Positions 1-15,652 of a DNA stretch of 64,000 bases are shown here, in pieces. Source of the stretch: Flavobacteriia bacterium (lineage in GTDB: Bacteria > Bacteroidota > Bacteroidia > Flavobacteriales_D > Crocinitomicaceae); NCBI GenBank assembly GCA_947450325.1, contig CANFUT010000011.1, positions 1 to 64,000 on the forward strand, in the 5' to 3' direction. Position 1 is the stretch's first letter, and every line of letters begins with the position of its first letter. Both the position numbers and the translations under genes were made by a program. A model generated the notes under the pieces. That model was not told the DNA's origin. It did no database searches and saw nothing but the letters and a program-made list of their open reading frames with translations.

Positions 1-59
1 AAGACTCCTTGTCAAATGCACAACCAAAATAAAATCAAAATAAAAACCTATAAAAACAA

Positions 60-91
60 ATATCCCAGTAAACACGTGTTTACTGGGATAT
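60..91 (-). terminator. Perfect 32-base palindrome, probable terminator
   Basis: Every base from 60 to 91 pairs with its mirror (centre CACGTG). Read on the minus strand the hairpin is followed by a T-rich stretch, so it could end transcription coming from the small minus-strand ORF at 127-369. The sequence beyond the window start is unknown, so it could also serve a neighbour there. Confidence 0.6.
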
Positions 92-126
92 AATTTATTA
101 ATTTAGTCTTTAATAATCTGTATCGC

Positions 127-369
127 TTATTTAGGACTAGTCATATTCAAGAGCAGGAGCGGCACTGCCAATCCTGACCAAAAAAGGGGAATTGCTTTTA
201 CAGCTACGCCCCTTTTCGATTCAAATAAAAATACCTTAGATTTTAAAACGGTTCTACTAAAGCCAATGCCAGGGTAAAAGTAGTTTTTTATAATTATTAA
301 ACTTATAATTTTGATTATCAGTATTTCCCAAAACAAAAGAACCAACAAGGTTTCCTTATGTTGGTTCAA
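127..369 (-). CDS. Small hypothetical membrane protein (doubtful)
   Basis: 80-residue reading frame with a hydrophobic N-terminal segment (about residues 7-28) and a second hydrophobic stretch near the C-terminus. I recognise no family. The only available start is TTG at 367-369, which lowers confidence. In its favour, a strong hairpin terminator lies about 35 bases past its stop on the same strand. It could be a remnant or a chance frame. Confidence 0.3.
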   Translation of the reverse strand: MNQHKETLLVLLFWEILIIKIISLIIIKNYFYPGIGFSRTVLKSKVFLFESKRGVAVKAIPLFWSGLAVPLLLLNMTSPK

Positions 370-633
370 ATGTTATGTATATAGCCATCAGTTTAGTTGC
401 AGGTAGTGGCTTTATTCCTTTATCATTAAATGATTATTTCTAACGCTGAACCAAAATTACAGCAATTGCTGGAATTGAATTTTAATTGAAAAACAAATGA
501 AAATCATAAAATATTATAATACAGTAGCTTCACTTTAAAATCTAAATATTTTAACGTTTTTTTTTGGTATTAATACCATCAAATTATAGTACATATACCA
601 ATTCCATTTAAATGACAAATAAGTTATTTGTAT
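370..633. other. Non-coding region, nothing firm
   Basis: 264 AT-rich bases between the small minus-strand ORF and the response regulator. They contain a 12-base palindrome (GGTATTAATACC, 566-577) and an AT-only inverted repeat at 615-631 directly after the regulator's stop codon. I see no gene. Confidence 0.5.
615..631 (-). terminator. Possible weak terminator hairpin
   Basis: ACAAATAA, one base, TTATTTGT: an 8-base inverted repeat directly downstream of the LuxR-type regulator's stop codon. It has only one G/C pair per arm and no clear T-tract, so termination is a guess from position. Confidence 0.25.
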
Positions 634-1410
634 TCATTCATATTTCGATGGAAATTCGCGATTACGTGAAGATTTGCGCTCGATTTTTTGTTTTTGCTCC
701 AAAAGTTCCTCCTGTTCTATTTGTTCATCGGTTCTAATCTTATACAGACCTAAAAGGATACTTTTTCGAACGAATTCTGCCGGGTTCGTTGCCCCTATCC
801 TCTTAGAAATTTCTGATCTAATTGCGTCAATGGATTTTTTCGATAAATTCAAGCGCTCACTGATTTGATCGCTGGTCTTACCATCACAAATCATCTTTAA
901 AACGATAAGTTCTCGTTGACTTAATTGATATTTGACAAGACTTTCATCTTCTAAATTCTCTCTTTCAAACTTGGAAAAAAACGCTTGTGAAACCAATTCA
1001 TTGGTATGATTTCCCATGAATTTAACGTCAAATAATGCATCTACCATTTCATCAAAAGAACAGTTTTTCTTCAAAAAGCTCTTTGCTCCCAAACTGATTA
1101 ATTCAGAAACCATCCACAAATCATCATGCATACTTAACATAATCGCTTTCACCTCTGGATATTCCGTTCTCAATTTCAACAACGTTTCTTTTCCATCCAT
1201 GACAGGCATATCCAGATCAAGTAAAACGACATCAACCTGATTATTAAACATCTTTTCAAAGAAATCTTTCCCGTTTTCTGCTTGAAAAGCAACAACAATT
1301 TGTGGTTCTTTTTTCAATAACATGACTAGTGCTTGTCTAACAACTGTGTGATCCTCAACAACGGCAACTCGAATAATTTGGTCTGTTTTGTAGAATTTAG
1401 ATCTTTTCAT
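634..1410 (-). CDS. LuxR/NarL-type DNA-binding response regulator
   Basis: Cytoplasmic two-component transcription regulator. A receiver domain occupies roughly residues 12-130, with the acidic VEDH motif and the phospho-acceptor Asp in VVLLDLDMPVMDG. A LuxR-type helix-turn-helix follows (about residues 160-225, LSQRELIVLKMICDGKTSDQ). The C-terminal 30 residues are charged (EQEELLEQKQKIERKSS), an unusual tail for the family. It is the last gene of a minus-strand cluster with a HisKA_3 kinase upstream and is presumably its cognate regulator; target genes cannot be told from the sequence. Confidence 0.9.
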   Translation of the reverse strand: MKRSKFYKTDQIIRVAVVEDHTVVRQALVMLLKKEPQIVVAFQAENGKDFFEKMFNNQVDVVLLDLDMPVMDGKETLLKLRTEYPEVKAIMLSMHDDLWMVSELISLGAKSFLKKNCSFDEMVDALFDVKFMGNHTNELVSQAFFSKFERENLEDESLVKYQLSQRELIVLKMICDGKTSDQISERLNLSKKSIDAIRSEISKRIGATNPAEFVRKSILLGLYKIRTDEQIEQEELLEQKQKIERKSSRNREFPSKYE

Positions 1411-1488
1411 TTTACAATTTTAATAAATCAATTTCAATCTTTTTAATTTGATTTCAATTCAATCACAATACTTCGCTTTGAAAGATAT

Positions 1489-2141
1489 TCACTCCCTTTC
1501 TAATTTCCACAAACCTAACGAGAAAATCGAATAATAAATTATCCCTGAAACCTGAAAAATTGGCCATAAAAAATAAAAAATCGATCCAGCTTCATTTCGA
1601 ATAAAAATTTCAAAAAATGAAAAATAAAACTGAATTGCATTATAAAACAAAACCACCGAAACAATCCAAAATACACCGTCGTGAAACAAATTAGTGCTTA
1701 AGTTTCTTTGATACACTCCAAAAATGTAATAGATAGAAAAAGTAACTAAACAAAAATATTGGTTGAAACTGCTAAATAATTATCTATCACAGTAACCCCT
1801 TGAAAATAAAAAAGAAATAAAAAAATGCCTAGTAAAAACATTGCCAAAACTACTACGAATTTTACCTTCTTAAAATCAGAAAATTTAAGGAAGAATAAAG
1901 TAAAGGCAATCAATTCAAAAAGATAATGAAAACTAAAAATGTACTTTTGAAACGATTCCACCTTAAGGAAATAGATGAATAATGTAGTTACATTGACAAT
2001 AAAATATTCAATAGCAAGTATTTTAAATAAATAAAACCCTTGGATTTTGTTTCGTTTTAAAGTGCTTATCAATAAAATTAGAGCTGGCACACACGCGCTA
2101 CCAATTCCAATAAATCCCAATAAAATTGCCAGTTTTTCCAA
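1489..2141 (-). pseudogene. Frameshifted integral membrane protein, paralogue of the gene at 2977-3627
   Basis: Two adjacent frames form one protein homologous along its length to the intact 216-residue membrane protein at 2977-3627. The first (2141 down to 1746) begins MEKLAILLGFIGIGSA and matches the paralogue's IGIGSSFLP start. The second (to 1489) contains FYNAIQFYFSFF and WPIFQVSGIIYYS, matching LYNGLQVYVSMY and WPIVQISTVFYYT. Read one base back near 1746-1755, the sequence continues as VTFSIYYIFGVYQRN, matching FSIYVVLDAYKN in the paralogue. One missing T in a T-rich run would explain it. Several predicted membrane helices; function unknown. It may be a true pseudogene or a sequencing error. 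Confidence 0.75.
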
Positions 2142-2152
2142 GAATCAATGAT

Positions 2153-2995
2153 TTATTCAGTTTCGACTATTGGAAGCATTTCTTCAACTTCACTTTTTAG
2201 AGGCATTGATAGTTTGATTGAACCACCTTGATCAAATCGCTCAAAAAATAATTCACCAGAAATCAATTTCAACCTTTGTGAAATCGATTCCAATCCTACT
2301 CCACTGCTGTGAAAAAGCAAATATTCATAGTCGGATTGACTTATTGCAATTCCGTCGTGTTCCAGTTTCAAAAACAGATTATTTTCAAAACTTCCCAATG
2401 ATAAGTTTACCGATTCGGGTCGAGCATGTTTTAAGATATTGTTCAACAATTCCAAGGTAATTGAGTAAAATTGAATTTCTTGTTGCTCCTCCAAAATCAA
2501 TTCTTCTTTTGCAAATTCAGAAACAAAAGTACACGGATGTCCCAAAGTTTTTTGTGTTTGCTCCATCAATCGTCGAAGCGTTTTTTGCAAACCAAATTTC
2601 ACCAAGAAATGAGGGAGGATTTCGTGAGAAATTGTTCTGATTTTGCTGACAGATTGGTCCAAAACGTCAATCACAAATTTGATATCCTCATAGGACGAAG
2701 AATTTTCAGGAAGATCTTTGATAGTAGCAGTTAAATTTCGCTGCGCCATGGATAAAATTGCACCAACTTCATCGTGCAGATTTCTGGCAATTTTAGACCT
2801 TTCGTTTTCCTGCGCCAAAACGACAGCATTCATTAATTCAAGTTCTTTGTTTTTAAGTAGCACCTCAATTTCTTTGTTCTGTAAAATGCGCTTTTTGCGG
2901 AAATTAATCACCAATCCCAACAGCGACAAAATCAGACCAAGACTAAAAAGCGTGCCTGACAAGACAGTAATCAAGATCATTTTTTCGATATCCAT
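2153..2995 (-). CDS. HisKA_3-family sensor histidine kinase
   Basis: 280 residues: one N-terminal membrane helix (about residues 6-28), a coiled linker, a HisKA_3 dimerisation/phosphoacceptor domain (ERSKIARNLHDEVGAILSM, His near residue 74) and a HATPase_c domain with an LLNNILKHA N-box and a GVGLESISQRL G-box. It has no periplasmic sensor domain, so the signal may come from elsewhere. The membrane-protein gene upstream overlaps it by 19 bases and its frameshifted paralogue starts 11 bases after it. I infer that these membrane proteins are sensor partners. The partner regulator is probably the LuxR-type protein at 634-1410. Confidence 0.9.
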   Translation of the reverse strand: MDIEKMILITVLSGTLFSLGLILSLLGLVINFRKKRILQNKEIEVLLKNKELELMNAVVLAQENERSKIARNLHDEVGAILSMAQRNLTATIKDLPENSSSYEDIKFVIDVLDQSVSKIRTISHEILPHFLVKFGLQKTLRRLMEQTQKTLGHPCTFVSEFAKEELILEEQQEIQFYSITLELLNNILKHARPESVNLSLGSFENNLFLKLEHDGIAISQSDYEYLLFHSSGVGLESISQRLKLISGELFFERFDQGGSIKLSMPLKSEVEEMLPIVETE

Positions 2996-3627
2996 ACTAC
3001 TCTAGATAATAACGTGTAATAAAAAACTGTGCTGATTTGCACGATGGGCCAAGTCATTAAAAAAAGTTGATAATCGTCTTTTCTTATCAATGAATCATAC
3101 ATCGAAACGTAAACTTGTAGTCCATTGTAAAGTAATAAACCTGACGCAAAAACAAACAATTTGTCTTTTACTAATGAGTCATGAATGCTGTTCTTATAAG
3201 CATCTAAAACAACATAAATGGAGAAAAATGAAAGAAGAATGTTCATTGCCAAAGTATAAAAGCTCAATCGCTCTTCAAATTTGAAATCCAAAATCATGTA
3301 AAACAAGACAAAAATCGCAACATTCACAAAAATTAAAATCGTTGTCAGCTTTTGTAACACTTTCTTTTCTTTCGACCAATAATTGAACGCAAACATGAGT
3401 AATACAGATTCAACAAAAGTATTCCAAAAAAACAAGTTGTTTTGATTGTAATTCGTGAATAAAAAAAGTAACAAAGTCAAAAAATTGATACTTAAAATTT
3501 CGATACATAAAATTTTGAAATAGATATTTTGGGTATTCTTTTTCCCAAAGAAAAATAGTAGTATAGGAAGAAATGAACTTCCAATACCAATCGTTCCGAG
3601 AATCGTACTTAATAAATCTAAATCCAC
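2977..3627 (-). CDS. Polytopic membrane protein linked to a histidine kinase
   Basis: 216 residues with about six hydrophobic segments and few charged residues between them. It begins MDLDLLSTILGTIGIGS and ends in WPIVQISTVFYYTLLSRVVW. I do not recognise a named family. It is the first gene of the cluster and overlaps the start of the kinase gene by 19 bases, suggesting translational coupling. A second homologous copy, now frameshifted, lies on the other side of the kinase. Because the kinase lacks an extracytoplasmic domain, a role as its membrane sensor is a reasonable inference but nothing more. Confidence 0.7.
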   Translation of the reverse strand: MDLDLLSTILGTIGIGSSFLPILLFFFGKKNTQNIYFKILCIEILSINFLTLLLFLFTNYNQNNLFFWNTFVESVLLMFAFNYWSKEKKVLQKLTTILIFVNVAIFVLFYMILDFKFEERLSFYTLAMNILLSFFSIYVVLDAYKNSIHDSLVKDKLFVFASGLLLYNGLQVYVSMYDSLIRKDDYQLFLMTWPIVQISTVFYYTLLSRVVWISKK

Positions 3628-4079
3628 TTTTAATTAATAAATATTTTGAATTGCTAATAAAGCATACGCAGTCCAAAATATATTTGAAACTCTAAAATTA
3701 ACCTAATTTAATTAAGGGGTGAATCGCTATTTTTTACAGAAAAATCGGATTTTGTTCAATCCCAAGAAATTTATATGTAAAGCAGTATTTTATACTGGTG
3801 TTTTTTAGTATTTGTACTAGGGGAATTTGGTATTTGTACTAAATTAACATAGCATACTTAACTAAAGTAGCTAATTTCAAAACTGATTAAATCTTTACTT
3901 AAAATGCAGATTGAGTCACTCGAAGTCTGCGCTCGCCAATTAAAGTCAACATTTGACAATCGAAGCTTAAATAAAATGCACGCTTGCCAATAATAAATTT
4001 GTACAGTCAGAACACTATTGCTTATATTTGCCTTTTTTTAGGTACTAATCATTCAGGTGATTACTTTTTTTATTTTTAG
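3628..4079. other. Non-coding divergent region with promoter for the RRM gene
   Basis: 452 AT-rich bases between the divergent kinase cluster and the RRM protein gene. They hold the plus-strand promoter at 3998-4030 and, in the leader, TAATCA/TGATTA arms (about 4045-4062) followed by a T-rich run. That leader hairpin could attenuate or bind protein. No gene seen. Confidence 0.5.
3998..4030 (+). promoter_or_regulatory. Bacteroidota-type promoter of the RRM protein gene
   Basis: TTTG at 3998-4001, a 21-base spacer, then TATATTTG at 4023-4030: an exact fit to the known Bacteroidota housekeeping consensus (TTTG, 19-21 bases, TAnnTTTG). Transcription would start near 4037 and give a leader of about 40 bases before the ATG at 4080. 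Confidence 0.65.
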
Positions 4080-4499
4080 ATGACGAATATTTTTATTGCA
4101 AACTTAGATTGGGAAATTACTTCCGACGACTTAACAGCAACCTTTTCTTCTTTTGGCGTGGTTACATATGCGCATGTTGTTTTTGACAAAGTGACCAAAA
4201 AATCGAAAGGTTTTGGTTATGTTGAAATGGAAACGACCGATGGCGCAATTGCTGCGATTGAAGCGTTGAATGGAATGGATATCAATGGAAGAAAGTTAGA
4301 CGTTAAAATTGCTTCGCCTAAAGGAAATCGTCCTGAGAAAAAAGTTTTTGAAAAGAAACCTTTTGAGAAAAAACCGTTCGAAAAAAGACCTTTTGAAAAG
4401 AGACCTTATCCTGCTGGTACAAAACCTGCCTACAACAGTGAAAGACCAACAAACACAAGTTCAGAGGAAAGAAAACCATTCAGAAAAAGAGAAGATTAA
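4080..4499 (+). CDS. RRM-domain RNA-binding protein
   Basis: 139 residues. A single RNA recognition motif fills residues 1-80, with RNP2 (IFIANL) and RNP1 (KGFGYVEM). The C-terminal 55 residues are basic and low in complexity: five near-identical five-residue units of the form FEK(K/R)P at about residues 89-113, then a Pro/Arg/Lys tail. Small RRM proteins of this kind are common in Bacteroidota and are thought to act as RNA chaperones or post-transcriptional regulators. It has its own consensus promoter and a leader with a small hairpin, so it may be autoregulated (inference). Confidence 0.85.
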   Translation: MTNIFIANLDWEITSDDLTATFSSFGVVTYAHVVFDKVTKKSKGFGYVEMETTDGAIAAIEALNGMDINGRKLDVKIASPKGNRPEKKVFEKKPFEKKPFEKRPFEKRPYPAGTKPAYNSERPTNTSSEERKPFRKRED

Positions 4500-4575
4500 T
4501 TTTTCGATTTGTTGAAATCCATTTGCAACTCAGAATCGTAAGTAGTTTACTCATTTTCGCTTTAAAAGAAAGATT

Positions 4576-4944
4576 ATGATGTTTAAACGCTTAGGTTCAA
4601 TTTGTTTCGCAATCGCTTTTTTGTTGGCAATTGTCGTTTTCACAAATTATGGAGGAAATTTTATCCCACGCTATTTGGCGAAAACTGGAATGATTATCTT
4701 CGGTGGAACCGCGTTACTCATGAATTTGATTTCTTTTAGATTTGATAAATCTTCCGAAAATAATCCGGTGTACTGGATCGGAAGTGTGGGAATTTTTGTG
4801 GGATTAATTCTGAAAATGAACCGTGTACCATTCAATCAATTTCTCCTCATCGCAGGGATTTTTATTGTCGGACTTTCATTTTTCTATAATCCTTTTGCTA
4901 AAAATAACTCAACGCAAAAAGATGATGACCTTTTGGATCAATAA
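4576..4944 (+). CDS. Small membrane protein with GldL-like helix pair
   Basis: 122 residues with four hydrophobic segments (about 5-25, 35-53, 67-82, 88-106) and an acidic tail. The third and fourth helices read IGSVGIFVGLILKMNRVP then a hydrophobic run, resembling the helix hairpin of GldL in this same window (GALFKIMHWPGAG). I take this as a shared structural motif, not proof of function. The next gene's start lies inside its last 23 bases, so the two are probably translated together and may work together. Confidence 0.7.
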   Translation: MMFKRLGSICFAIAFLLAIVVFTNYGGNFIPRYLAKTGMIIFGGTALLMNLISFRFDKSSENNPVYWIGSVGIFVGLILKMNRVPFNQFLLIAGIFIVGLSFFYNPFAKNNSTQKDDDLLDQ

Positions 4945-7048
4945 AATACAATTTAGGGTTTTTAAAAATTTATCCAATCTACTTGTTCTCGCAATTTGCT
5001 GTCTTTCCGCTTCAACAATTTTTGCCCAAAAAGCGGTAAAACTCGATCTACAAAACCCTAATAAAATTGAACTAACAGACAATAATTTTTGGTTTTGGGA
5101 AACGAAATCATCCAAAGAAAATGACTTAAAGGCCGCGTTAAATGCACATAGTAGTTTTAAAAACCTTCCAAATTTATATCCAAATTTTGGCTTCGTTACT
5201 TACGATGTATGGTTTCGATTTGTGCTCACAAACCAATCCAACGACACGATTCAAACCTTGTTAAGTGTCAGCAATCCAAACATGGATGAAATTGATCTGT
5301 ATCAAAAATCAACCACAGCAAATTGGAAAAACATTGCGCAATTAGGCGACAATCGTCCTTATAAAAACAAAAAAATTGCCAACCGAAATTTTATCATGCC
5401 AATCTATTTGTTGCCGCATGCAACAGATACTTTTTTACTGCGCACAAACAACGGAGGCGAACAATTTCACTTTATGCCGGCGTTGGTCACCAATCAATTT
5501 TTCTTGGAAGACGATGCCGACACGCAACTTTACTTCGGAATTTATTTCGGAATTATTGCTTTCATAATCATTTTCAACCTTTTCTCATATTTCGCTTTGA
5601 AAGACAAAAACGCACTTTGGTACGCGTCTTATGTTTTCTCTTTTGGAATGTTGAATATTTCCCTGCTCGGTATTGGTTCCTATTATTTTTGGAGCGGAAA
5701 CTACCTGGTTGACAGAACAAATCCACTATTTGCTTCTACCAGTTTGCTCTTTTTGCTCTATTTCTGCATGGGCTATTTGAAAACCAAAATCAATCTTCCC
5801 AAGACGCATAAATTATTCAGATTTTTCTTGTTTTTCGCGTATGTTTTTTCAATTTGTTCATTAATTCCTGGCGAAATATTTTATCAAATCTCAGTCGTAG
5901 GAATCAATGGTGTCACTTTGATATTAAATATTTTAATTATTCCAATCGCATACGTTGCCATCCGAGAAAAAATTCAAGAAGCCAAATTGTTTTTGATTGC
6001 TTTCACGATGCTTGCCATCACCGTTTTTGGTTTCATTTTGAAAAATTTTGGCCTAGCGCCTTCCAATTTTATTACCGATTTTGGAATGCAAATTGGCTCG
6101 TCTTTAGAAGCGATTTTATTGAGTATTGGTATCGTTTTAAAATACAAAACGACGCGCGAAACGGCCTTGAAAAGCTTGAAAGATTTAAATGACTTGACAG
6201 AACAAGCGAATGTAGTTTTGGAACAAAAAGTGACAGAGAGAACGCAAGAAGTTGAAAGTCAAAAATCACTTTTAGAATATAAAAATGGAGAAATTCTGAG
6301 TAGCATCAATTATGCAAAACGCATTCAAGATTCATTGTTGCCATCCAAAAGTACTTTTCTCAACGCTTTGCCAAATTCTGCGCTTTGGTATGCACCGAAA
6401 GACATTGTTGCTGGTGATTTTTATTGGGTACAAACTCTGGAAATTAACAATCAAAAATGGACATTTTTTGCAGTCGGAGATTGCACGGGACACGGTGTTC
6501 CTGGAGCAATGATGAGCGTTTTATGCTTCAATGCGTTGGAATCTGGGCTGAAAGAACTCACTCAACCAAATCCAGGAATATTACTCGAAAAAGCAGCGAT
6601 TTATTTGACCAAAAACCTACATAGCGAAAATCAAGATTTGGCCGATGGAATGGATATTTCTGTAGCTTGTATCGATTTTGAAACCAAACAATTGTTTTGG
6701 GCAGGAGCAAATAATCCACTTTGGATATTGAGAAACGAAGAAATTATTCAATACACAGCAACTAAACGTCCAGTTGGAAAAACGGATGTCAAAACGCCTT
6801 TTGAATGTAAAGCAATTGAATTAACACCAAAAGACAAATTATTTCTATTTTCAGATGGCTATGTAGATCAATTTGGTGGTGAGCAAAACAAAAAATTCAA
6901 ACGAAACAACTTTATTCAATTGATTCATACCTATTCAAAGTTGCCCATTCACGATTTAATGAACGAAATCAAAAAAGCACATTTCAATTGGAAAGGCGAG
7001 GAAGAACAAGTCGATGATATTTGTGTGATGATTGTTGAAATTGATTGA
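4922..7048 (+). CDS. 7TM (7TMR-DISM) receptor with SpoIIE/PP2C phosphatase domain
   Basis: About 708 residues. An in-frame start further upstream exists, but ATG 4922 (or 4925) puts a signal peptide at the N-terminus (NLLVLAICCLSASTIFAQ). Then come a periplasmic sensory domain of the 7TMR-DISMED2 type (about 30-200), seven membrane helices (about 210-410), a coiled coil (about 415-475), and a C-terminal SpoIIE-type phosphatase with DFYWVQ, FAVGDCTGHGVPGAMMS and LFLFSDGYVDQFGG. In this family the phosphatase acts on a phosphoserine/threonine partner, often an anti-sigma-factor antagonist; no such gene is adjacent. Its start overlaps the upstream small membrane protein. Confidence 0.85.
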   Translation: MMTFWINKIQFRVFKNLSNLLVLAICCLSASTIFAQKAVKLDLQNPNKIELTDNNFWFWETKSSKENDLKAALNAHSSFKNLPNLYPNFGFVTYDVWFRFVLTNQSNDTIQTLLSVSNPNMDEIDLYQKSTTANWKNIAQLGDNRPYKNKKIANRNFIMPIYLLPHATDTFLLRTNNGGEQFHFMPALVTNQFFLEDDADTQLYFGIYFGIIAFIIIFNLFSYFALKDKNALWYASYVFSFGMLNISLLGIGSYYFWSGNYLVDRTNPLFASTSLLFLLYFCMGYLKTKINLPKTHKLFRFFLFFAYVFSICSLIPGEIFYQISVVGINGVTLILNILIIPIAYVAIREKIQEAKLFLIAFTMLAITVFGFILKNFGLAPSNFITDFGMQIGSSLEAILLSIGIVLKYKTTRETALKSLKDLNDLTEQANVVLEQKVTERTQEVESQKSLLEYKNGEILSSINYAKRIQDSLLPSKSTFLNALPNSALWYAPKDIVAGDFYWVQTLEINNQKWTFFAVGDCTGHGVPGAMMSVLCFNALESGLKELTQPNPGILLEKAAIYLTKNLHSENQDLADGMDISVACIDFETKQLFWAGANNPLWILRNEEIIQYTATKRPVGKTDVKTPFECKAIELTPKDKLFLFSDGYVDQFGGEQNKKFKRNNFIQLIHTYSKLPIHDLMNEIKKAHFNWKGEEEQVDDICVMIVEID

Positions 7049-7063
7049 AAAAGTCGAAAATCA

Positions 7064-8110
7064 TCAACGAGTCATTTCTAAAAAACCGCCTTTTGTGAGC
7101 AATTTGGTCGGCGTATTCTCCACATACAAACCGCCAGTTCCCAATCCTTGAAAAAGCAAATTGTCGTAAGTGGAAGTAAATTGAGCTATGTGATTCAAAC
7201 CAACATTGGACTCCAACGCAGAAGTAATCCACCACGGAATATTCAAATTTTCAGCGATTTCAATCCAAGATTTCGTTCCCGAAATTCCTCCGTGCAAACT
7301 GGGTTTCAAAATGATGTATTGAGGTCGAATTATTTGCAACAAATTTCGTTTCGCATCCAAATCGTGAATGCCAATTAATTCTTCGTCCAACGCAATTGGC
7401 AATGGTGATTTTTGACACAATTCCGCCATCGCTTTCCATTGATTTACTTGAATAGGTTGTTCAATAGAATGAATTTCCAAAGTCGATAATTGAGTCAATC
7501 TTTCCAACGCTTCAACGACAGAAAAAGCACCGTTTGCATCGACACGCAATGTCAATTGATCCGCAGGAAAACGCTGGCGCAAAGATTCCAAAATGGCAAA
7601 TTCTTTGTCAAATTCTATCGCGCCGATTTTCATTTTGATACAGCGATAGCCTTCTTGCAATTTATCCTCAATTTGTGCTTGCATAAAAGCTTCATCGCCC
7701 ATCCAAATCAATCCGTTGATTGGAATTTTGGTTTCACTTCTGGTAAACGACGTATCGTAAAAAAGCGATTTTCCACCATTTCTCAAATCCAACAAAGCGG
7801 TTTCAATTCCAAAAACAATGGATGGAAATTCGACGATTTGTGCACACAAACCTTCGATTGACTCAAAAGTGAAAGCACTTGAATTGATTTGGTCGCAACA
7901 AGATTTTACTTGTTTTTCATATTGTTCAAAATCAACAAAATCAGGCGAAAGTCCGGGAATAATACTGCATTCTCCCAAACCAATAATCGAAGGATTTTCG
8001 GAATCTGAAAGTGAAATAAACCAAGCATGTTTTTCGGTTAATACTCCCCTACTCGTTCCACTTGGTCGTTTGAAGTGAAACGTTTTTTTCTCGAAAGTCG
8101 CGCGAATCAT
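7064..8110 (-). CDS. menC: o-succinylbenzoate synthase
   Basis: Enolase-superfamily enzyme that dehydrates SHCHC to o-succinylbenzoate in menaquinone synthesis. Visible catalytic features are the KMKIG lysine pair, metal ligands in RVDANGAF, IEQP and DEEL, and the second lysine in LKPSLHGG. I chose ATG 8110 (MIRATFEKKTF), which gives 348 residues, the family's usual length; the open frame upstream runs into menA. It starts 5 bases after the menA stop, so the two form an operon. The 3' end nearly meets the convergent phosphatase gene. Confidence 0.9.
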   Translation of the reverse strand: MIRATFEKKTFHFKRPSGTSRGVLTEKHAWFISLSDSENPSIIGLGECSIIPGLSPDFVDFEQYEKQVKSCCDQINSSAFTFESIEGLCAQIVEFPSIVFGIETALLDLRNGGKSLFYDTSFTRSETKIPINGLIWMGDEAFMQAQIEDKLQEGYRCIKMKIGAIEFDKEFAILESLRQRFPADQLTLRVDANGAFSVVEALERLTQLSTLEIHSIEQPIQVNQWKAMAELCQKSPLPIALDEELIGIHDLDAKRNLLQIIRPQYIILKPSLHGGISGTKSWIEIAENLNIPWWITSALESNVGLNHIAQFTSTYDNLLFQGLGTGGLYVENTPTKLLTKGGFLEMTR

Positions 8111-8114
8111 TGAA

Positions 8115-9047
8115 CTAAAATGAAGCGTGTAAAACAATCGCCACCGCAAAGAAAACGCTGATCGCAAAAGCGGACAAAGCAACTTTTTTCAATTCAGGAT
8201 CAAAATTGCGTTCTTGGACAATGCTCATGGCTTTTCTTAGATGTAATATCAACAAAATCAGGGGCAACAATGAAAGCGCCATCCATTTATTTTCCGATTG
8301 AAATTGAAAAACGAAAATCGTGAAACAAGCAATTCCGCCTAAAATCAAAAAAGCGTGGTAAAACTTCGCCCTTTCGCCGCCCAACTGAACAACCAACGTG
8401 CGTTTACCTACTTTCGCATCATTCGTTCTGTCGCGCATGTTATTGAGATTCAAAACCGCCATACTCAATAAACCAATTGTAGCAGCCGGCAATAAATTTT
8501 CAAATCGAAAAGTCGAGAAACTGAATTCTGGCAAATACAAATGATAAACGCCTAAAACACTCACCAAACCGAAGAAAATAAATACAAAAAAATCGCCCAA
8601 TCCGTGGTAGCCATAAGCGCGTTTTCCAACGGTATATGTGATTGCTGCAAGTACGCAAAAAACGGCCAAAACAGCATAGAAAACCCAAAATGAAAGCGTT
8701 TTGTTCAACGAAGCGAAATAGATCAATGTTCCTGCCGAAATAAAAGACAAAACGCTCAATAAAAACACCGCATTGCGCATTTCTTTCATCGAAATCACTC
8801 CCGATTGCACAGCTCTTTCAGGACCAACGCGCCCTTCATTGTCCGCGCCTTTCTGACTGTCGCCCAAATCATTCGCTAAATTGGACAGTACCTGAAATAA
8901 AACAGTTGTCAACAAAGCAAAAATGAAAATTGTTGTGTTCCAAAAACCATTTGATTTGGCAACAAAAGAGCCCAAAATAATTCCTGATAATGAAAGTGGA
9001 AGCGTTCGCAATCTGCATGCGTGAATCCAAGCTTTTGTTTTTGTCAT
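8115..9047 (-). CDS. menA: 1,4-dihydroxy-2-naphthoate polyprenyltransferase
   Basis: Integral membrane UbiA-family enzyme that attaches the polyprenyl chain to DHNA, the step that makes demethylmenaquinone. About nine hydrophobic segments in 310 residues. Both prenyl-diphosphate/Mg binding motifs are visible: NDLGDSQKGADNEG (about residue 60) and NNMRDRTNDAKVGKRT (about residue 200). It stands directly upstream of menC on the same strand; the remaining men genes are not in this window. Confidence 0.9.
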   Translation of the reverse strand: MTKTKAWIHACRLRTLPLSLSGIILGSFVAKSNGFWNTTIFIFALLTTVLFQVLSNLANDLGDSQKGADNEGRVGPERAVQSGVISMKEMRNAVFLLSVLSFISAGTLIYFASLNKTLSFWVFYAVLAVFCVLAAITYTVGKRAYGYHGLGDFFVFIFFGLVSVLGVYHLYLPEFSFSTFRFENLLPAATIGLLSMAVLNLNNMRDRTNDAKVGKRTLVVQLGGERAKFYHAFLILGGIACFTIFVFQFQSENKWMALSLLPLILLILHLRKAMSIVQERNFDPELKKVALSAFAISVFFAVAIVLHASF

Positions 9048-9295
9048 GCTGTAAAATTAATCAATCTGATACTACAACACAATTTTCATCAATAGGTTTT
9101 TTAAATTCTTTTTTCATTGAAATTTCCTAAAAAAATCACAATGAATCCGAATTACAAATTGTAGATTCATTTCTGTTTTGTAATTTCGTAGTTAGAAGAA
9201 AATTTCTGTTTTTCAATTATTTTTTTCAGAGAAAACAGATGAATAACAGCATTCGAACAAATCAGATTTTTGTTCAACAAAAGCACAACTCATTC

Positions 9296-10249
9296 ATGAA
9301 AAATCGCATAACACAACTTTTCAATATTCAATATCCAATCATTCAAGCAGGAATGATTTGGTGTTCTGGTTGGGAATTGGCTTCTGCTGTTTCCAACGCT
9401 GGCGGATTAGGAATCATTGGTTCTGGATCAATGTATCCGCATATTTTAGACGAACAAATTGCCAAATGCAAAGCCGCAACAAACAAACCTTTCGCGGTCA
9501 ATTTGCCCATGCTCTATCCTGATATCGACAAGCACATTGAAACAATCATTAAACACCAAGTTCCCATTGTTTTTACTTCTGCAGGAAATCCAAAAACTTG
9601 GACAAAACATTTGCAATCGCATGGAATTGTGGTTGTTCACGTTGTTTCAAGCGTAAAATTTGCTTTGAAAGCACAAGAAGCTGGTGTTGATGCGGTCGTT
9701 GCTGAAGGTTTTGAAGCTGGAGGTCACAACGGACGTGACGAAACAACGACTTTTTGCTTGATTCCGATGGTTGCAGAAGCGATTTCGATTCCTTTGATCG
9801 CCGCAGGCGGAATTGGAACTGGAAAAGGAATGTTGGCCGCAATGACATTAGGTGCTGATGCGGTTCAAATTGGAAGTCGATTCGTTGTTACTCCAGAAGC
9901 GAGTTGTCACATCAATTTCAAAAACAAAGTCATTTCATCGAAAGAAGGCGATACACTTCTAACTTTGAAAGAATTAACTCCTGTGCGATTATTGAGAAAT
10001 CCATTTTTTGACCAAGTTCAAGAAGCATATAAAAAAGGCACAAACGCCGAAGAACTCGAAAATCTTTTGGGTCGCGGACGCGCAAAACGAGGTATGTTTG
10101 AGGGCGACCTCATCGAAGGCGAATTAGAAATCGGTCAAGTTGCGGGATTAATCCATGAAATTAAACCTGCAGCGGAAATTGTTGCTGAAATCATCGCCGA
10201 ATACAAAGAAAACATTGCATTACAAACTTCAGATAAATTTACATTTTAA
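9296..10249 (+). CDS. Nitronate monooxygenase (NPD-family FMN enzyme)
   Basis: 317 residues from ATG 9296; an in-frame ATG at 9239 would add 19 residues with no family match, so the later start (MKNRITQLFNIQYPIIQAGM) is preferred. It is a TIM barrel of the 2-nitropropane dioxygenase family: GGLGIIG near the N-terminus, EGFEAGGHNG, and the phosphate-binding AAGGIGTG followed by LGADAVQIGSRF. The family oxidises alkyl nitronates, but many members have other or unknown substrates. Its stop overlaps the start of the next M16 peptidase by one base (TAATG), so they are co-translated. Confidence 0.85.
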   Translation: MKNRITQLFNIQYPIIQAGMIWCSGWELASAVSNAGGLGIIGSGSMYPHILDEQIAKCKAATNKPFAVNLPMLYPDIDKHIETIIKHQVPIVFTSAGNPKTWTKHLQSHGIVVVHVVSSVKFALKAQEAGVDAVVAEGFEAGGHNGRDETTTFCLIPMVAEAISIPLIAAGGIGTGKGMLAAMTLGADAVQIGSRFVVTPEASCHINFKNKVISSKEGDTLLTLKELTPVRLLRNPFFDQVQEAYKKGTNAEELENLLGRGRAKRGMFEGDLIEGELEIGQVAGLIHEIKPAAEIVAEIIAEYKENIALQTSDKFTF

Positions 10250-11490
10250 TGATTCAATTCGAAAGATTTTCCCTTGAAAACGGACTCAAAGTAATATTTC
10301 ACAAAGACACCACCACGCCTTTGGCAGTCGTAAATACGCTTTACGATGTTGGCGCGCGCGACGAAGATCCTGAAAAAACAGGTTTCGCGCATTTATTCGA
10401 ACATTTGATGTTTGGCGGTTCAGTCAATATTCCTGATTTCGACGCGCCTTTGCAACATGCTGGCGGAGAAAGCAACGCATTTACTTCCAACGATATCACC
10501 AATTACTACGACGTTTTGCCAGCGCAAAATATCGAAACTGCTTTGTGGTTAGAATCCGACAGAATGTTGTCGCTTGGTTTCACACCAAAAAGTTTGGAAA
10601 CACAAAGAAGTGTCGTAATTGAGGAATTCAAACAACGCTATTTAAATCAACCTTACGGAGATGTTTGGTTGAAATTAAGACCTTTGGCTTACCACACGCA
10701 TCCCTATCAATGGGCTACGATTGGAAAAGAAATCAGTCACATTGAAGATGCCAAAATGGAAGATGTAAAAGCGTTTTTCCATAAATTTTACAATCCAAGC
10801 AACGCGATTTTATGCATCGCTGGAAATTTTGAATTAGACGAAGTAAAACGTTTGGTTGAAAAATGGTATGGCGACATTCCATCGAAAATGAAACCTGCTA
10901 GAATTTTGACTGCGGAGTTGCCACAAACGGAATTCAGAGAGCAAATTATCGAACGCAATGTTCCATCTGACGCATTTTATTATGCTTTCAAAATGTCGGA
11001 ACGAAAATCAGCGGAATATTACATCACCGACATGCTTTCTGACGCTTTGGGACGAGACAAATCTTCTCGTTTGTACACTTCGATTCAAAAAGAGCAAAAA
11101 TTGGTAACAGAAATTGGCGCTTACATTACTGGCTCTTTGGACAATGGATTGCTCGTTATCAGCGGAAAACTGAGTCCTGATGTGACTTTTGAAGAAGTGG
11201 ACACCGCGATTTGGAAAGTGTTGAGCGAAATTCAAACTGAAAAAATCAGCACGAAAGAATTAGATCGATTGAAAAATAAAATCAAAACGGCAAAAGCTTT
11301 TCAAGAACAAGGTTTATTGAATCGTGCGATGAATTTGGCTTATTTCGAATTATTAGGCGATGCTGACGGCGTGAATCAAGAAGCGATTTTATACGAACAA
11401 ATTCAACCAGAACACATTTTAGCAAACGCGCAAGACATTCTACAAAAAACAAATTGTTCTTTATTAAAAGTAAAAGCCATTCAATCATGA
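10249..11490 (+). CDS. M16-family zinc peptidase, catalytic subunit
   Basis: 413 residues, insulinase/processing-peptidase fold. The inverted zinc motif HLFEH is at about residues 48-52, with the downstream glutamate in ETALWLESDR, so it should be active. A second M16 domain follows in the C-terminal half. Its stop overlaps the next gene, a non-catalytic M16 partner, by 4 bases (ATGA), which suggests a heterodimer as known for bacterial M16B pairs. No signal peptide is seen, so it is probably cytoplasmic. Confidence 0.9.
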   Translation: MIQFERFSLENGLKVIFHKDTTTPLAVVNTLYDVGARDEDPEKTGFAHLFEHLMFGGSVNIPDFDAPLQHAGGESNAFTSNDITNYYDVLPAQNIETALWLESDRMLSLGFTPKSLETQRSVVIEEFKQRYLNQPYGDVWLKLRPLAYHTHPYQWATIGKEISHIEDAKMEDVKAFFHKFYNPSNAILCIAGNFELDEVKRLVEKWYGDIPSKMKPARILTAELPQTEFREQIIERNVPSDAFYYAFKMSERKSAEYYITDMLSDALGRDKSSRLYTSIQKEQKLVTEIGAYITGSLDNGLLVISGKLSPDVTFEEVDTAIWKVLSEIQTEKISTKELDRLKNKIKTAKAFQEQGLLNRAMNLAYFELLGDADGVNQEAILYEQIQPEHILANAQDILQKTNCSLLKVKAIQS

Positions 11491-12755
11491 GTTTAAGAAA
11501 TACAGCACCCGCGATACATCCACTACAGAAAATCCAATTTGTAGAACCACATATTTTTGACATCACGCCTACTGTGAAATTGTATTGGATGCAACCTGTT
11601 CCAGACGAAACAACGCGCATTGAATTTCACTTTGACGCAGGAACAATCCGCGGAAATCGCAAAATTGCGGGTTTTGTGAACAGTCTTTTACTTTCAGGAA
11701 CTGCCGACAAAACGAGTACACAGATCAATCAAGAATTGGACGGTTTGGGCGCTTATTTGGATCAAGAAATTGCACAAGAATTGGCAATCGTCAGTTTATA
11801 TTGTTTGAAAGAAAACGTTGAAAAAGCAGTCGCTATTTTGGTAAATGCGATTCAGGAAGTCGCGTTTCACGAACACGAAATCAGCGATATGTTACGCGAA
11901 AAAAAGCAACAATTTCTCGTTTCTTCTGAAAAAGTGAGCGTTTTGGTGCGACGTGCTTTTCAAAAACAATTGTTTAGCAATTCAGAAAACTACAATCGTC
12001 AACTAGAATTGTCGGATTTGGAGGATGTTTCTGTACTGGATTTGAAAAGATTTCACAAAGAATTTTACCTACAAGGTTTGCGCAAAGTAATCGTTGTTGG
12101 TGATGTTGAACCAGCATACATCGATCGTTTAATCGATACAGTTGGCGCTTGGTCTAAACCGGGAATTTGCGAATTTGAAAAAGATTTCATCAACATTCCA
12201 GGACGTTTACACATCGAGAAAAAAGATGCGGTTCAAACGGCAATTCGCATGGGAATTCCATTGTTCAACAAAACGCATGAAGATTTCCTTGATTTTCAAA
12301 TTCTTCAAACCATTTTCGGCGATTATTTTGGAAGTCGATTGATGTCAAATATCCGCGAGGACAAAGGTTATACTTATGGAATCGGTTGTGGCGTTGCAGA
12401 ATCAAACAATGCAGGCTATTTCATTATTGCGACAGAAGTTGGAAAAGATGTGGCAGATGCGACATTGACTGAAATCAAAAATGAAATGGATTTGTTGAAA
12501 GTAGAATTGGTTCCGCAAGAAGAATTAGATTTAGTCAAAAATTATCTCCTAGGTCAGATTCTAAAAAGTGCAGACGGACCAAATGCAATGATGGATTTAT
12601 ACATGGCAGCACATTTACACGGCAAAGATTTTGAGTATTACAACGATGCGATTCAGCACATTCAAAACATTTCGCAAGAGCGCATTTTAGCCTTGGCGAA
12701 TAAATATTTGAATTGGGATAAATTTACGATTGTTACAGCGGGAACGAAAGTGTAG
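11487..12755 (+). CDS. M16-family peptidase-like protein, non-catalytic subunit
   Basis: 422 residues from ATG 11487, which overlaps the catalytic subunit's stop by 4 bases. It has the same two-domain M16 layout, but the zinc motif is absent: the matching place reads GNRKIAGFVNSLLLSG. The C-terminal half keeps family features such as GSRLMSNIREDKGYTYG. It is probably the partner of the gene before it, helping form the closed chamber and bind substrate. A strong terminator follows. Confidence 0.88.
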   Translation: MSLRNTAPAIHPLQKIQFVEPHIFDITPTVKLYWMQPVPDETTRIEFHFDAGTIRGNRKIAGFVNSLLLSGTADKTSTQINQELDGLGAYLDQEIAQELAIVSLYCLKENVEKAVAILVNAIQEVAFHEHEISDMLREKKQQFLVSSEKVSVLVRRAFQKQLFSNSENYNRQLELSDLEDVSVLDLKRFHKEFYLQGLRKVIVVGDVEPAYIDRLIDTVGAWSKPGICEFEKDFINIPGRLHIEKKDAVQTAIRMGIPLFNKTHEDFLDFQILQTIFGDYFGSRLMSNIREDKGYTYGIGCGVAESNNAGYFIIATEVGKDVADATLTEIKNEMDLLKVELVPQEELDLVKNYLLGQILKSADGPNAMMDLYMAAHLHGKDFEYYNDAIQHIQNISQERILALANKYLNWDKFTIVTAGTKV

Positions 12756-12779
12756 TTTATCTTTAATTTTAAAAATTGG

Positions 12780-12804
12780 AACGACGGTATTAAATACTGT
12801 CGTT
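12780..12804 (+). terminator. Rho-independent terminator after the M16 gene pair
   Basis: AACGACGGTA, a 5-base loop, TACTGTCGTT: a 10-base stem with one G-U pair, running into seven T residues. It ends the nitronate monooxygenase / M16 operon; the T-tract overlaps the stop codon of the convergent DUF2490 gene. Confidence 0.8.
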
Positions 12805-12807
12805 TTT

Positions 12808-13488
12808 TTATTTCCATTTTTTAAACTTGTATCCCAATGTCAAACCATAGATAAAGTCCGTTGTATTTACTTTTTTGAAAAATGAATTTTGCAAAAGAAA
12901 GTACAAATCAACTTCAAACTGTTTGGTTATTTTTCGGTTTACTCCAATGTACAACCTGTTTCTCCGAATTAAAAAAGGTGAAACTGAAATGGGAGCCATT
13001 ATTTCATCTGCAAGGTAAAAATTGGTCTTTTTATTTAGATCATATCCAAAAGTCAATTTCTCTCTCAAATCCGCTCGCATATAGAAAATCGTTCCATTGT
13101 CAACGATAAAATTACTAGATGTATATTGACCAATCACCCTATTAGAAATCGACCATTTTTTCGCTATTTGAAAAGTATTTGAAATTGAAGCATAATATTG
13201 AAATAAAGACTTGTAATTGCTATTATCTAATTGATATGGAGCATAAACCGCATCCAAGGAAACTTTGAAATTTTCACTTACTTTATAAAATAAACCCAAA
13301 TCAATATAATAGGATTTCAAATGTGAAATATTGTCCGCAAATCGAAAACGAGACTGCACTTTAAGTGAAAGATTTTGCGGTAATTTTTGTTCTAATACCA
13401 ATGATAGCCAACTTGCTGCATCCTGCCTCTGTTGCCCATAAACATGGCATGAAACTAGAAATAAAGTGCCAAGTACCCAATTCTTCAT
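12808..13488 (-). CDS. DUF2490 outer-membrane beta-barrel protein
   Basis: 226 residues from ATG 13488; an upstream ATG would add 8 residues before the signal peptide (MKNWVLGTLFLVSCHVYGQ). The mature part begins QRQDAASWLSLVLEQKLPQNLSL, with alternating strands throughout and a C-terminal aromatic-rich strand (YGLTLGYKFKKWK). The pattern fits DUF2490, a Bacteroidota family of predicted outer-membrane barrels of unknown function. It stands alone between two convergent or tandem units. Confidence 0.75.
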   Translation of the reverse strand: MKNWVLGTLFLVSCHVYGQQRQDAASWLSLVLEQKLPQNLSLKVQSRFRFADNISHLKSYYIDLGLFYKVSENFKVSLDAVYAPYQLDNSNYKSLFQYYASISNTFQIAKKWSISNRVIGQYTSSNFIVDNGTIFYMRADLREKLTFGYDLNKKTNFYLADEIMAPISVSPFLIRRNRLYIGVNRKITKQFEVDLYFLLQNSFFKKVNTTDFIYGLTLGYKFKKWK

Positions 13489-13623
13489 TTTACAAATTAA
13501 ATCAAAATGCATTGGTTGAAAATTGATTAAGTTAAATTTTATGTATTCAGCAAAATTTTAAGTTTATTTTAAGGAATATGAAGGTCTTTTGAAATCTAAA
13601 AATAATGAAAATGATTCACAAAA

Positions 13624-13654
13624 AAAGTCCATCATTTCAAAAACGATGGACTTT
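13624..13654 (-). terminator. Rho-independent terminator of clpX
   Basis: Perfect 10-base stem AAAGTCCATC / GATGGACTTT with an 11-base loop, followed on the minus strand by a run of T, just after the clpX stop. Confidence 0.85.
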
Positions 13655-13675
13655 CAATATCTGTTAATTCTAAAC

Positions 13676-14905
13676 TTAAGCTACTTTCAATCGAGCAACT
13701 TTAGATTTCGAAAATTGTTCTTTGGCATAGTCTGCAGAGACTCTGAATTCTTTGATTTTCTTAGATGGTAAATCAAACATAGCATCATTTAAAATACCTT
13801 CGCAAATCGAACGCAAACCTCTGGCGCCTAATTTAAACTCGATCGCTTTTTCAACGATAAAATCCAACACATCACCTTCAAAAGCCAATTTGATTCCATC
13901 GATTTCAAACAAACGAACATATTGTTTGATCAATGCATTTTTTGGTTCTGTCAAAATTCGTTTCAAACTTTTTCCATCCAACGGTTCCAAGTAAGTCAAT
14001 GAAGGAAAACGACCAATCAACTCAGGAATTAAACCATAAGATTTGATATCTGTTGGATTGATGTATTTCAAGAAATTATCTCCATCAATGCGCACATCAT
14101 CGTTGCTACTGAAACCAATTGTTTGCGTATTTACGCGTCTTGCAATGATTTTTTCAATTCCATCAAACGCACCACCACAAACAAACAAGATGTTTTTAGT
14201 ATCGATTTGAATCATCTTTTGCTCCGGATGCTTTCTTCCTCCTTGAGGCGGAACATTGACAACCGAGCCTTCCAATAATTTCAATAAAGCCTGTTGAACT
14301 CCTTCTCCTGAAACGTCACGTGTAATGGAAGGATTATCACTTTTTCGTGCAATTTTATCAATTTCATCAATGAAAACAATTCCTCTTTGCGCAGCTTCCA
14401 CATTGTAATCCGCAGCTTGAAGCAAACGAGAAAGAATGCTTTCAACGTCTTCACCTACGTAACCTGCTTCAGTTAAAACAGTGGCATCAGCTATACAAAA
14501 TGGAACATTTAACAAACGAGCGATGGTTTTAGCCAACAATGTTTTTCCCGTTCCTGTGCGTCCAACCAAAATAACATTCGCTTTCTCGATTTCCACATCG
14601 TCTTTTGTAACTGGCTGATTCAATCTTTTGTAATGATTGTAAACGGCAACAGACAATACTTTTTTTGCATCTTCTTGTCCGATTACATACTCATCTAATT
14701 TAGATTTGATTTCAATCGGTTTCAAGATATTCAAAGGTGCTTCTTTGAAAGCATCTGTTTTGTTTGCTTTAAATTCCTCTTCAACAATTGAATAACCTTG
14801 CGTAATACAACTTTCACAAATATGACCTGATAATCCTGCGATTAACATTCCTACTTGCGAGCGCGGTCTTCCGCAAAACGAACAAGATGTTTCTTTTTTT
14901 GACAT
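13676..14905 (-). CDS. clpX: ClpXP protease ATPase subunit ClpX
   Basis: AAA+ unfoldase that feeds tagged proteins to ClpP. 409 residues, normal length: an N-terminal four-cysteine zinc finger (CSFCGRP, CESC), Walker A GRTGTGKT at about residue 115, Walker [11 protein letters not shown], pore loop region GYVGEDVE, and sensor-2 GARGLRSI. clpP is 69 bases upstream on the same strand but a hairpin terminator separates them, so clpX may be expressed partly independently. Confidence 0.97.
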
Positions 14906-14921
14906 ATTCTAGTTTGACAAA

Positions 14922-14953
14922 AAAAGCCATCCGCCAAGTGACGAATGACCTTT
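14922..14953 (-). terminator. Terminator/attenuator between clpP and clpX
   Basis: On the minus strand AAAGGTCATTCGTC, loop ACTT, GGCGGATGGCTTT: a stem of about 14 pairs including several G-U pairs, followed by a run of T. It lies between the clpP stop and the clpX start and should limit read-through. Confidence 0.7.
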
Positions 14954-14974
14954 AAATAATTAATTATAAGTGAT

Positions 14975-15652
14975 TTATTTTGGATTTCTCACCAAAACTT
15001 CATCTACCATTCCGTAAGCTTTTGCTTCTTCTGATGTCATCCAATAATCACGGTCTGAATCAGCATGTACTTTGTCGTAATCTTGTTTTGTATGGTATGC
15101 GATGATGTCATACAACTCCTTTTTCAATTTACCGATTTCACGTGCAGTAATTTCGATATCAGAAGCTTGTCCTTGCGCGCCACCCAATGGTTGGTGAATC
15201 ATTACACGTGAATGTTTCAACGCTGAACGTTTTCCTTCAGCACCAGCACACAACAAAACTGCGCCCATAGAAGCTGCCATTCCTGTACAAATTGTTGCCA
15301 CATCTGGTTTGATGTATTGCATTGTATCGTAAATTCCCAAACCTGCATAAACAGATCCACCTGGTGAATTCATGTAAATTTGAATGTCTTTTTTAGGATC
15401 TACAGATTCCAAAAACAACAATTGCGCATTGATAATATTCGCAACTTGGTCATTAATTCCTGTTCCTAGGAAGATAATTCTATCCATCATCAAACGAGAA
15501 AAAACATCCATTTGAGTCATATTCATATGTCTTTCCTCGATGATATATGGAGTCAAAGAAGATTCAATATAACTGTTCAGAGACATACTGCTGATTCCCT
15601 GATGTTTTGTCGCGTATTTTTTAAATTCGTCGTTTCCAAACATATTGTTCAT
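14975..15652 (-). CDS. clpP: ATP-dependent Clp protease proteolytic subunit
   Basis: Serine protease of the ClpXP complex. 225 residues: catalytic Ser in GMAASMGAVLLC (about residue 125), His in MIHQPLGG (about residue 150), and the Asp-containing region before DRDYWMTSEEAKAYG. An N-terminal propeptide-like stretch of about 30 residues precedes the mature domain, a feature of many ClpP proteins. The gene pairs with clpX downstream. Confidence 0.96.
   Translation of the reverse strand: MNNMFGNDEFKKYATKHQGISSMSLNSYIESSLTPYIIEERHMNMTQMDVFSRLMMDRIIFLGTGINDQVANIINAQLLFLESVDPKKDIQIYMNSPGGSVYAGLGIYDTMQYIKPDVATICTGMAASMGAVLLCAGAEGKRSALKHSRVMIHQPLGGAQGQASDIEITAREIGKLKKELYDIIAYHTKQDYDKVHADSDRDYWMTSEEAKAYGMVDEVLVRNPK

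Follow-up and report, generated by a model that had tools for sequence, protein, structure and literature searches.

The window, the whole 64,000-nucleotide stretch analysed here, contains a group of genes that all lie on the minus strand, in the transcription order M1, K, M2 (in two frames) and R. M1 (2977..3627, −; 216 aa, GTG start) is a seven-helix membrane protein assigned by its family profile and is the proposed input subunit of the kinase. K (2153..2995, −), whose gene overlaps that of M1 by 19 bases, is a protein of 280 aa with one N-terminal membrane helix and without a sensor domain. After a gap of 11 bases follows M2, a frame-broken second M gene, which consists of an N-terminal piece (1746..2141, −; 131 aa, TTG start) and a C-terminal piece (1489..1779, −), an open frame in a different reading frame; a single frame change lies somewhere between about 1749 and 1779. 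R (634..1410, −) is a response regulator of 258 aa with receiver and LuxR (GerE) domains. By the Pfam domain test, K is a HisKA_3 histidine kinase (4.7e-7, 30.7 bits, above the cut-off of 24) with an HATPase_c part just below its cut-off (5.3e-5, 24.1 bits against 26.4), and R is a NarL/LuxR-type response regulator, with Response_reg (4.5e-25, 88.4 bits) and GerE (2.9e-12, 46.4 bits) both above their cut-offs.

In the preliminary description, the kinase was flanked by two related membrane proteins, the downstream one broken, and BLASTP and profile searches agreed with this. The motifs it reported as shared, IGIGS, FSIY, Y-N-x-x-Q and WPI-Q-S-x-x-YY, are present as stated: IGIGSS, FSIYVV, YNGLQVY and WPIVQISTVFYY in M1, and IGIGSA, FSIYYI, YNAIQFY and WPIFQVSGIIYY in M2. 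BLASTP aligned M1 with the two M2 pieces at 35% identity (93 aa, 3e-7) and at 33% identity (69 aa, 5e-14), where the E-values are those of single comparisons, and a 50-row family profile matched the C-terminal piece at 9e-22 and the N-terminal piece at 3.2e-4. A 109-row profile matched 155 of 4801 real stop-to-stop frames at E<=1e-4, a count in which redundant loci and the sequences used to train it are included. At the same threshold none of 4801 reversed and none of 4801 shuffled frames were matched, one reversed frame reaching 0.0071, indicating that the family resemblance is not an artefact of membrane composition. The neighbourhoods were covered by 22 regions with 341 ORFs (20 neighbourhoods of 10.6–18 kb, L004 and positions 1–14000 of the window), in which the 109-row profile matched 27 ORFs, every one at the cassette position; these were M genes including tandem members, M1 and the M2 N-terminal piece. 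By sequence similarity, M1 is a homologue of both M2 pieces.

Averaged over 109 proteins, the hydrophobicity of M displayed seven peaks. Lys and Arg were enriched at the helix 1-2 and 3-4 connections and at the C-terminus, and less clearly at the 5-6 connection; since this distribution favours N-out/C-in, it is probably the topology of M. An alignment-free AF2 model of M1 placed helices at residues 3-27, 33-57, 60-84, 89-112, 117-146, 151-181 and 186-215, with a pLDDT of 55 that makes the fold unreliable. In 53 full cassettes, M had the lowest mean identity (0.18 vs 0.28 for K, 0.34 for R and 0.37 for C), and 50 aligned rows contained zero invariant residues. Neither M1 nor the M2 pieces matched a Pfam or NCBIfam model above cut-off. 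Against transporter and membrane enzyme families in Pfam, NCBIfam, PHROGs and the sequences of solved structures, M gave sub-cut-off matches only, each from a single member or with an E of 0.008 or worse. The family libraries used contain a LiaF model, and no LiaF family was among the Pfam and NCBIfam matches of M. Among PDB sequences no rhodopsin chain was matched, the best hit being Na/K-ATPase at E=0.11.

A second cassette was found in the same genome on contig C27 (L004), in the order C (115 aa), M (215 aa), kinase and regulator. Its M is 31% identical to M1 and its kinase 59% to K; no M was detected 3' of this kinase, and the M is single. Three HisKA_3 kinases occur in the genome (Pfam, E<=1e-3), two of which are the cassette kinases, while the third lies within a 659-aa frame. 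Several ORFs adjoin the C27 cassette (L004:350-5084, −), which by motif we take to carry Rhs-like core sequences. C proteins, about 105 aa in length, form a second family without annotation; the preliminary description recognized M, K and R as the cassette and missed this small protein, which is absent from the window copy. In 30 rows of C the residues R, Y, C, C and L are invariant, and the protein ends in a conserved Cys-rich C-terminus whose Cys pair is mostly CPxxC. No credible match to C was obtained in Pfam (30 members), in NCBIfam (5 members; best 2.3e-4, 20.4 bits vs a cut-off of 180), or in PHROGs (3 members) and PDB sequences. An N-terminal helix was lacking in 74 of 77 C proteins; one is present in L073 and L128 and, by eye, also in L085, L093 and L095, and the C domain would therefore be outside in those.

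A two-kinase profile searched against 200 genomes of the family gave matches in 44 of them at E<=1e-30, and a two-M profile in 33 at E<=1e-3. The M profile was then grown iteratively on the loci fetched, and with 50 rows it matched at least 72 of 395 genomes and at least 39 of 171 genera in a phylum sample (E<=1e-6); C was matched in at least 43 of 295 genomes of a class sample (E<=1e-6). These genome counts are lower bounds because scoring in each genome was confined to its few best candidates. M matches reached at least seven in one genome of the phylum sample; scoring there stopped at seven candidates for each genome, so that seven is a floor.

The locus counts that follow hold among the matches listed, and the sets fetched with K, M and C overlap. 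K-fetched loci (L013-L041) had M upstream in 27 of the 27 in which the contig continues, and 2 of the 29 end at K. K was present in 26 of 28 M-fetched loci of the family (L042-L069; the 29th, L070, is the chance match described below), with L064 stopping at the contig edge and L057 being a C-M pair without a kinase. M-fetched loci of the phylum (L071-L100) had a K-profile kinase within 1.5 kb downstream in 27 of 30; in L092 a second C-M pair (L186) comes between M and the HisKA_3 kinase, and in L093 and L095 M is followed by a PAS-containing kinase of a different type. C-fetched loci (L105-L134) contained M in 26 of 30 and K in 27 of 30, no M being found in four. In a pool of 113 distinct M proteins, which left out the M2 pieces of the window as too short, K lay downstream in 77 of the 87 having at least 900 bases there, and C upstream in 94 of the 112 having at least 600 bases there; the ten K misses were seven M-then-M arrangements, two other kinase types and L057. 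The M- and C-fetched counts are fairer than the pool, since the pool includes K-fetched loci. The linkage to HisKA_3 kinases across Bacteroidota that the preliminary description proposed as a test was thus near complete in the loci examined (27 of 30 in the M-fetched phylum set). Because of this linkage and because no transporter or enzyme family was found for M, neither of the two findings that would speak against its proposal was obtained.

The usual order of the cassette is C-M-K-R, overlap of the M and K genes by 1-19 bases (judged by profile edges) is common, and the majority of examined cassettes have one M. Among the loci examined, M directly after K was found in the window only; L112 is the other K-then-M case, but there a C gene lies between. 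Tandem M genes ahead of one kinase were found in L092, L094, L129, L149, L152 and L153, some as C-M-C-M, so that some cassettes may form complexes with several M. The earlier proposal that the two flanking proteins form a membrane sensor for the kinase, perhaps as a heteromer, can be kept in part: the linkage supports a membrane partner as the likely sensor, but a two-protein heteromer flanking the kinase is not the rule, as the C27 paralogue and most cassettes have one M and the M after K in the window is frame-broken. In L189 (5629-7092, −), a receiver-LuxR regulator gene follows M immediately, without an intervening kinase, and L188 has M without a nearby K; both loci are outside the pool of 113.

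When genome contigs were queried with M1 alone, no relatives were found, and the kinase pair found 4 loci. L101, from a Flavobacteriales MAG (62%), has K-R on a contig that starts at K; L102-L104 contain remote kinases (24-27%), with neither M nor C detected. No C was found in viral contigs, and neither C (two queries) nor M (one query) in plasmids. As for candidate target genes, BLASTP clustering of the 22 regions revealed no family beyond C, M, K and R common to more than 3 of them. Fusion of M to a kinase was considered for three M matches in frames of 484-527 aa; L070, the one inspected, looks like a Wzx/MATE-like flippase by eye; it is a chance match, reaching only 3.7e-3 with a better profile.

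The kinase frame was 260-360 aa long in 91 cassettes with M and K. The His was recognised in 87 of these, the other 4 being unscored; one hydrophobic helix precedes it in 85 of the 87 and two in 2. The cassette kinases, like K as originally noticed, are without an extracytoplasmic sensor domain. The C-M pair also lies upstream of other kinases. In L187 and L190 it precedes PAS-HisKA_3 kinases, in L183 (the L093 kinase) a protein with PAS, HisKA, HATPase_c and receiver domains, and in L184 (the L095 kinase) one with PAS and HATPase_c and with HisKA below cut-off; by eye, the kinases of L183, L184 and L190 start with one helix. Distance correlations over the 53 full cassettes were highest for K-R (0.89), followed by M-K (0.64), C-K (0.63), M-R (0.61), C-R (0.57) and C-M (0.40, the lowest), and did not point specifically to contact of M with K or of C with M. 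The G1 box in K and related kinases is often HDG or HNG, not DxG; by a simple pattern, HDG occurred in 33 and HNG in 16 of 103 kinase cores, 6 being unmatched. The cassette kinases of L050 and L060 are each divided between two reading frames.

Taken together, M1 is probably the input subunit in a signalling system of several components, in which M would sense, K relay to R, and C aid M. The seven-helix M, oriented N-out/C-in, would detect a signal by means of its helix bundle or its outer loops, passing a conformational change on to the single helix of K within the membrane; K would then alter the phosphorylation of the LuxR-type R, leading to gene switching. C, encoded just before M in the standard form, could be a co-sensor or a signal-binding partner of M. 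Since K is sensor-less and is nearly always preceded, and often overlapped, by a diverging M, it most likely gets its signal from M through the membrane. We infer M-K contact, the direction of the signal, C-M contact and any function of the window copy. The occurrence of the same C-M pair before several kinase types is the best evidence for C-M as an input module and suggests that the module is portable. The pairing of M with a kinase, usually together with C, was found again in many related bacteria and therefore has the look of an as yet undescribed sensor of the plug-in type. L057 (C-M without a kinase), L189 (M-R without K) and L188 (M without K) are counter-cases to this explanation. A bolder possibility, which we put forward tentatively, is that C-M represents a previously unknown kind of portable bacterial receptor, a fast-diverging and stand-alone seven-helix protein with a small partner of its own, that plugs via one helix into sensor-less kinases of several architectures throughout Bacteroidota and is comparable to the seven-helix receptors elsewhere that act through separate effectors. 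A single genome would then carry at least seven of these receptors. For kinases in which no sensor is visible, the recurring, unannotated C-M is a concrete candidate sensor. M and C, unnamed in Pfam, NCBIfam and PHROGs, become testable as sensors, with gene order naming the kinase partner.

Passages of PMC8534201 describe kinases without outer sensors as relying on membrane accessory proteins. We rate the general kind of the cassette as an intramembrane-sensing kinase with an accessory membrane protein, the accessory control being putative. LiaF-LiaS-LiaR of Bacillota resembles the cassette in that a single operon encodes a HisKA_3-type kinase without an outer sensor, an accessory protein of the membrane and a LuxR-type regulator, and K matched the LiaS model at 6.5e-12, far below its cut-off. 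The cassette differs in that M has seven helices and no LiaF match, in its C gene and in its occurrence in Bacteroidota. In UhpC-UhpB-UhpA, a polytopic membrane protein serves as the sensor for a HisKA_3 kinase and a LuxR-type regulator, and K matched the kinase part of UhpB at 2.5e-23, below cut-off. UhpC, however, has twelve helices and is homologous to transporters, and UhpB is polytopic as well; M, with about 215 aa, has seven helices and no transporter match. Seven-helix input regions feed histidine kinases also in HisKA_7TM (PF16927) proteins, and 7TMR-DISM (PF07695) is a seven-helix receptor-like region of Bacteroidota signalling proteins. These regions are fused to the kinase or to output domains, respectively, whereas M is separate, and M had no similarity to either in the family-model scans or in hhalign (probability 0.4% for HisKA_7TM, 9 domains compared; 0.9% for 7TMR-DISM_7TM, 12 domains compared); PF16927 had no match within the genome itself. 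In sensory rhodopsin, a separate seven-helix receptor acts on the membrane helices of its transducer; this is an analogy only, and M has no sequence match to rhodopsin chains. The cassette with its LuxR-type regulator, previously called undescribed, is indeed unnamed in the family libraries used, and no title or abstract describing it was found in the literature, a search that covered few subscription papers and is weak evidence of absence.

Two other roles for M were weighed against that of input subunit. Rather than the primary sensor, M might be a brake in the membrane that keeps K inactive, or a scaffold that stabilises it, much as LiaF does with LiaS, the stimulus acting on K, the bilayer or C. 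The gene order also fits this, LiaF is reported as an inhibitor of LiaRS (PMC7191749, PMC3543457), and accessory proteins are said in passages of PMC8534201 to repress their kinases frequently. On the other hand, M is the most divergent member of the cassette and occurs in multiple tandem copies, neither of which is expected of a pure brake; these points are indecisive, and we regard the brake as rather unlikely. Peptide signalling of the Agr type provides the analogy for a different role, in which M would process or export C, or a peptide derived from it, and the kinase would sense the product. Such a role is consistent with the position of C upstream of M (94/112) and with the conserved Cys-rich tail that ends C. 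It is nonetheless very improbable, as M lacks the invariant residue expected of an enzyme in its 50 rows, 74 of 77 C proteins lack an N-terminal helix, the kinase has no outer domain for binding a product, and the tail of C is conserved rather than diversifying.

The window copy itself differs from the usual cassette: C is missing, and K is followed by an additional M gene whose frame is broken. No remnant of C was found in any of the six frames of positions 1-15000, the best score being -1.1 bits. The M closest to the M2 C-terminal piece is that of L109 (46% identity over 93 aa, vs 35% to M1), and the M closest to M1 is that of L013 (38%); therefore M2 is not a simple recent duplicate of M1. 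The L109 gene (L109:242-895, −) belongs to another family of the class, and horizontal transfer is a possible cause of its likeness to M2. The frame break in M2 may be genuine or a sequencing error. It is conceivable, although the less probable case, that the window copy is decaying or a hybrid, such as the remains of two adjoining cassettes, and no longer signals, the C27 copy being the functional one. The broken M2, its closer likeness to an M of another family than to M1, the lack of any C-like sequence in positions 1-15000 and the location of the only C of the genome on C27 all fit such decay, but the open frames of M1, K and R are intact with their domains present, and K is still 59% identical to the C27 kinase. 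This explanation is limited to the window copy and is compatible with M as the input subunit in the family at large. Beyond M1, the window encodes an RRM RNA-binding protein (4080-4499, +) with one RRM (3.4e-21), divergently oriented to M1, and a 741-aa protein (4823-7048, +) in which positions 5525-6133 encode a seven-helix region of the 7TMR-DISM kind (PF07695, 3.3e-36) and whose C-terminal part presumably resembles a SpoIIE-type phosphatase.
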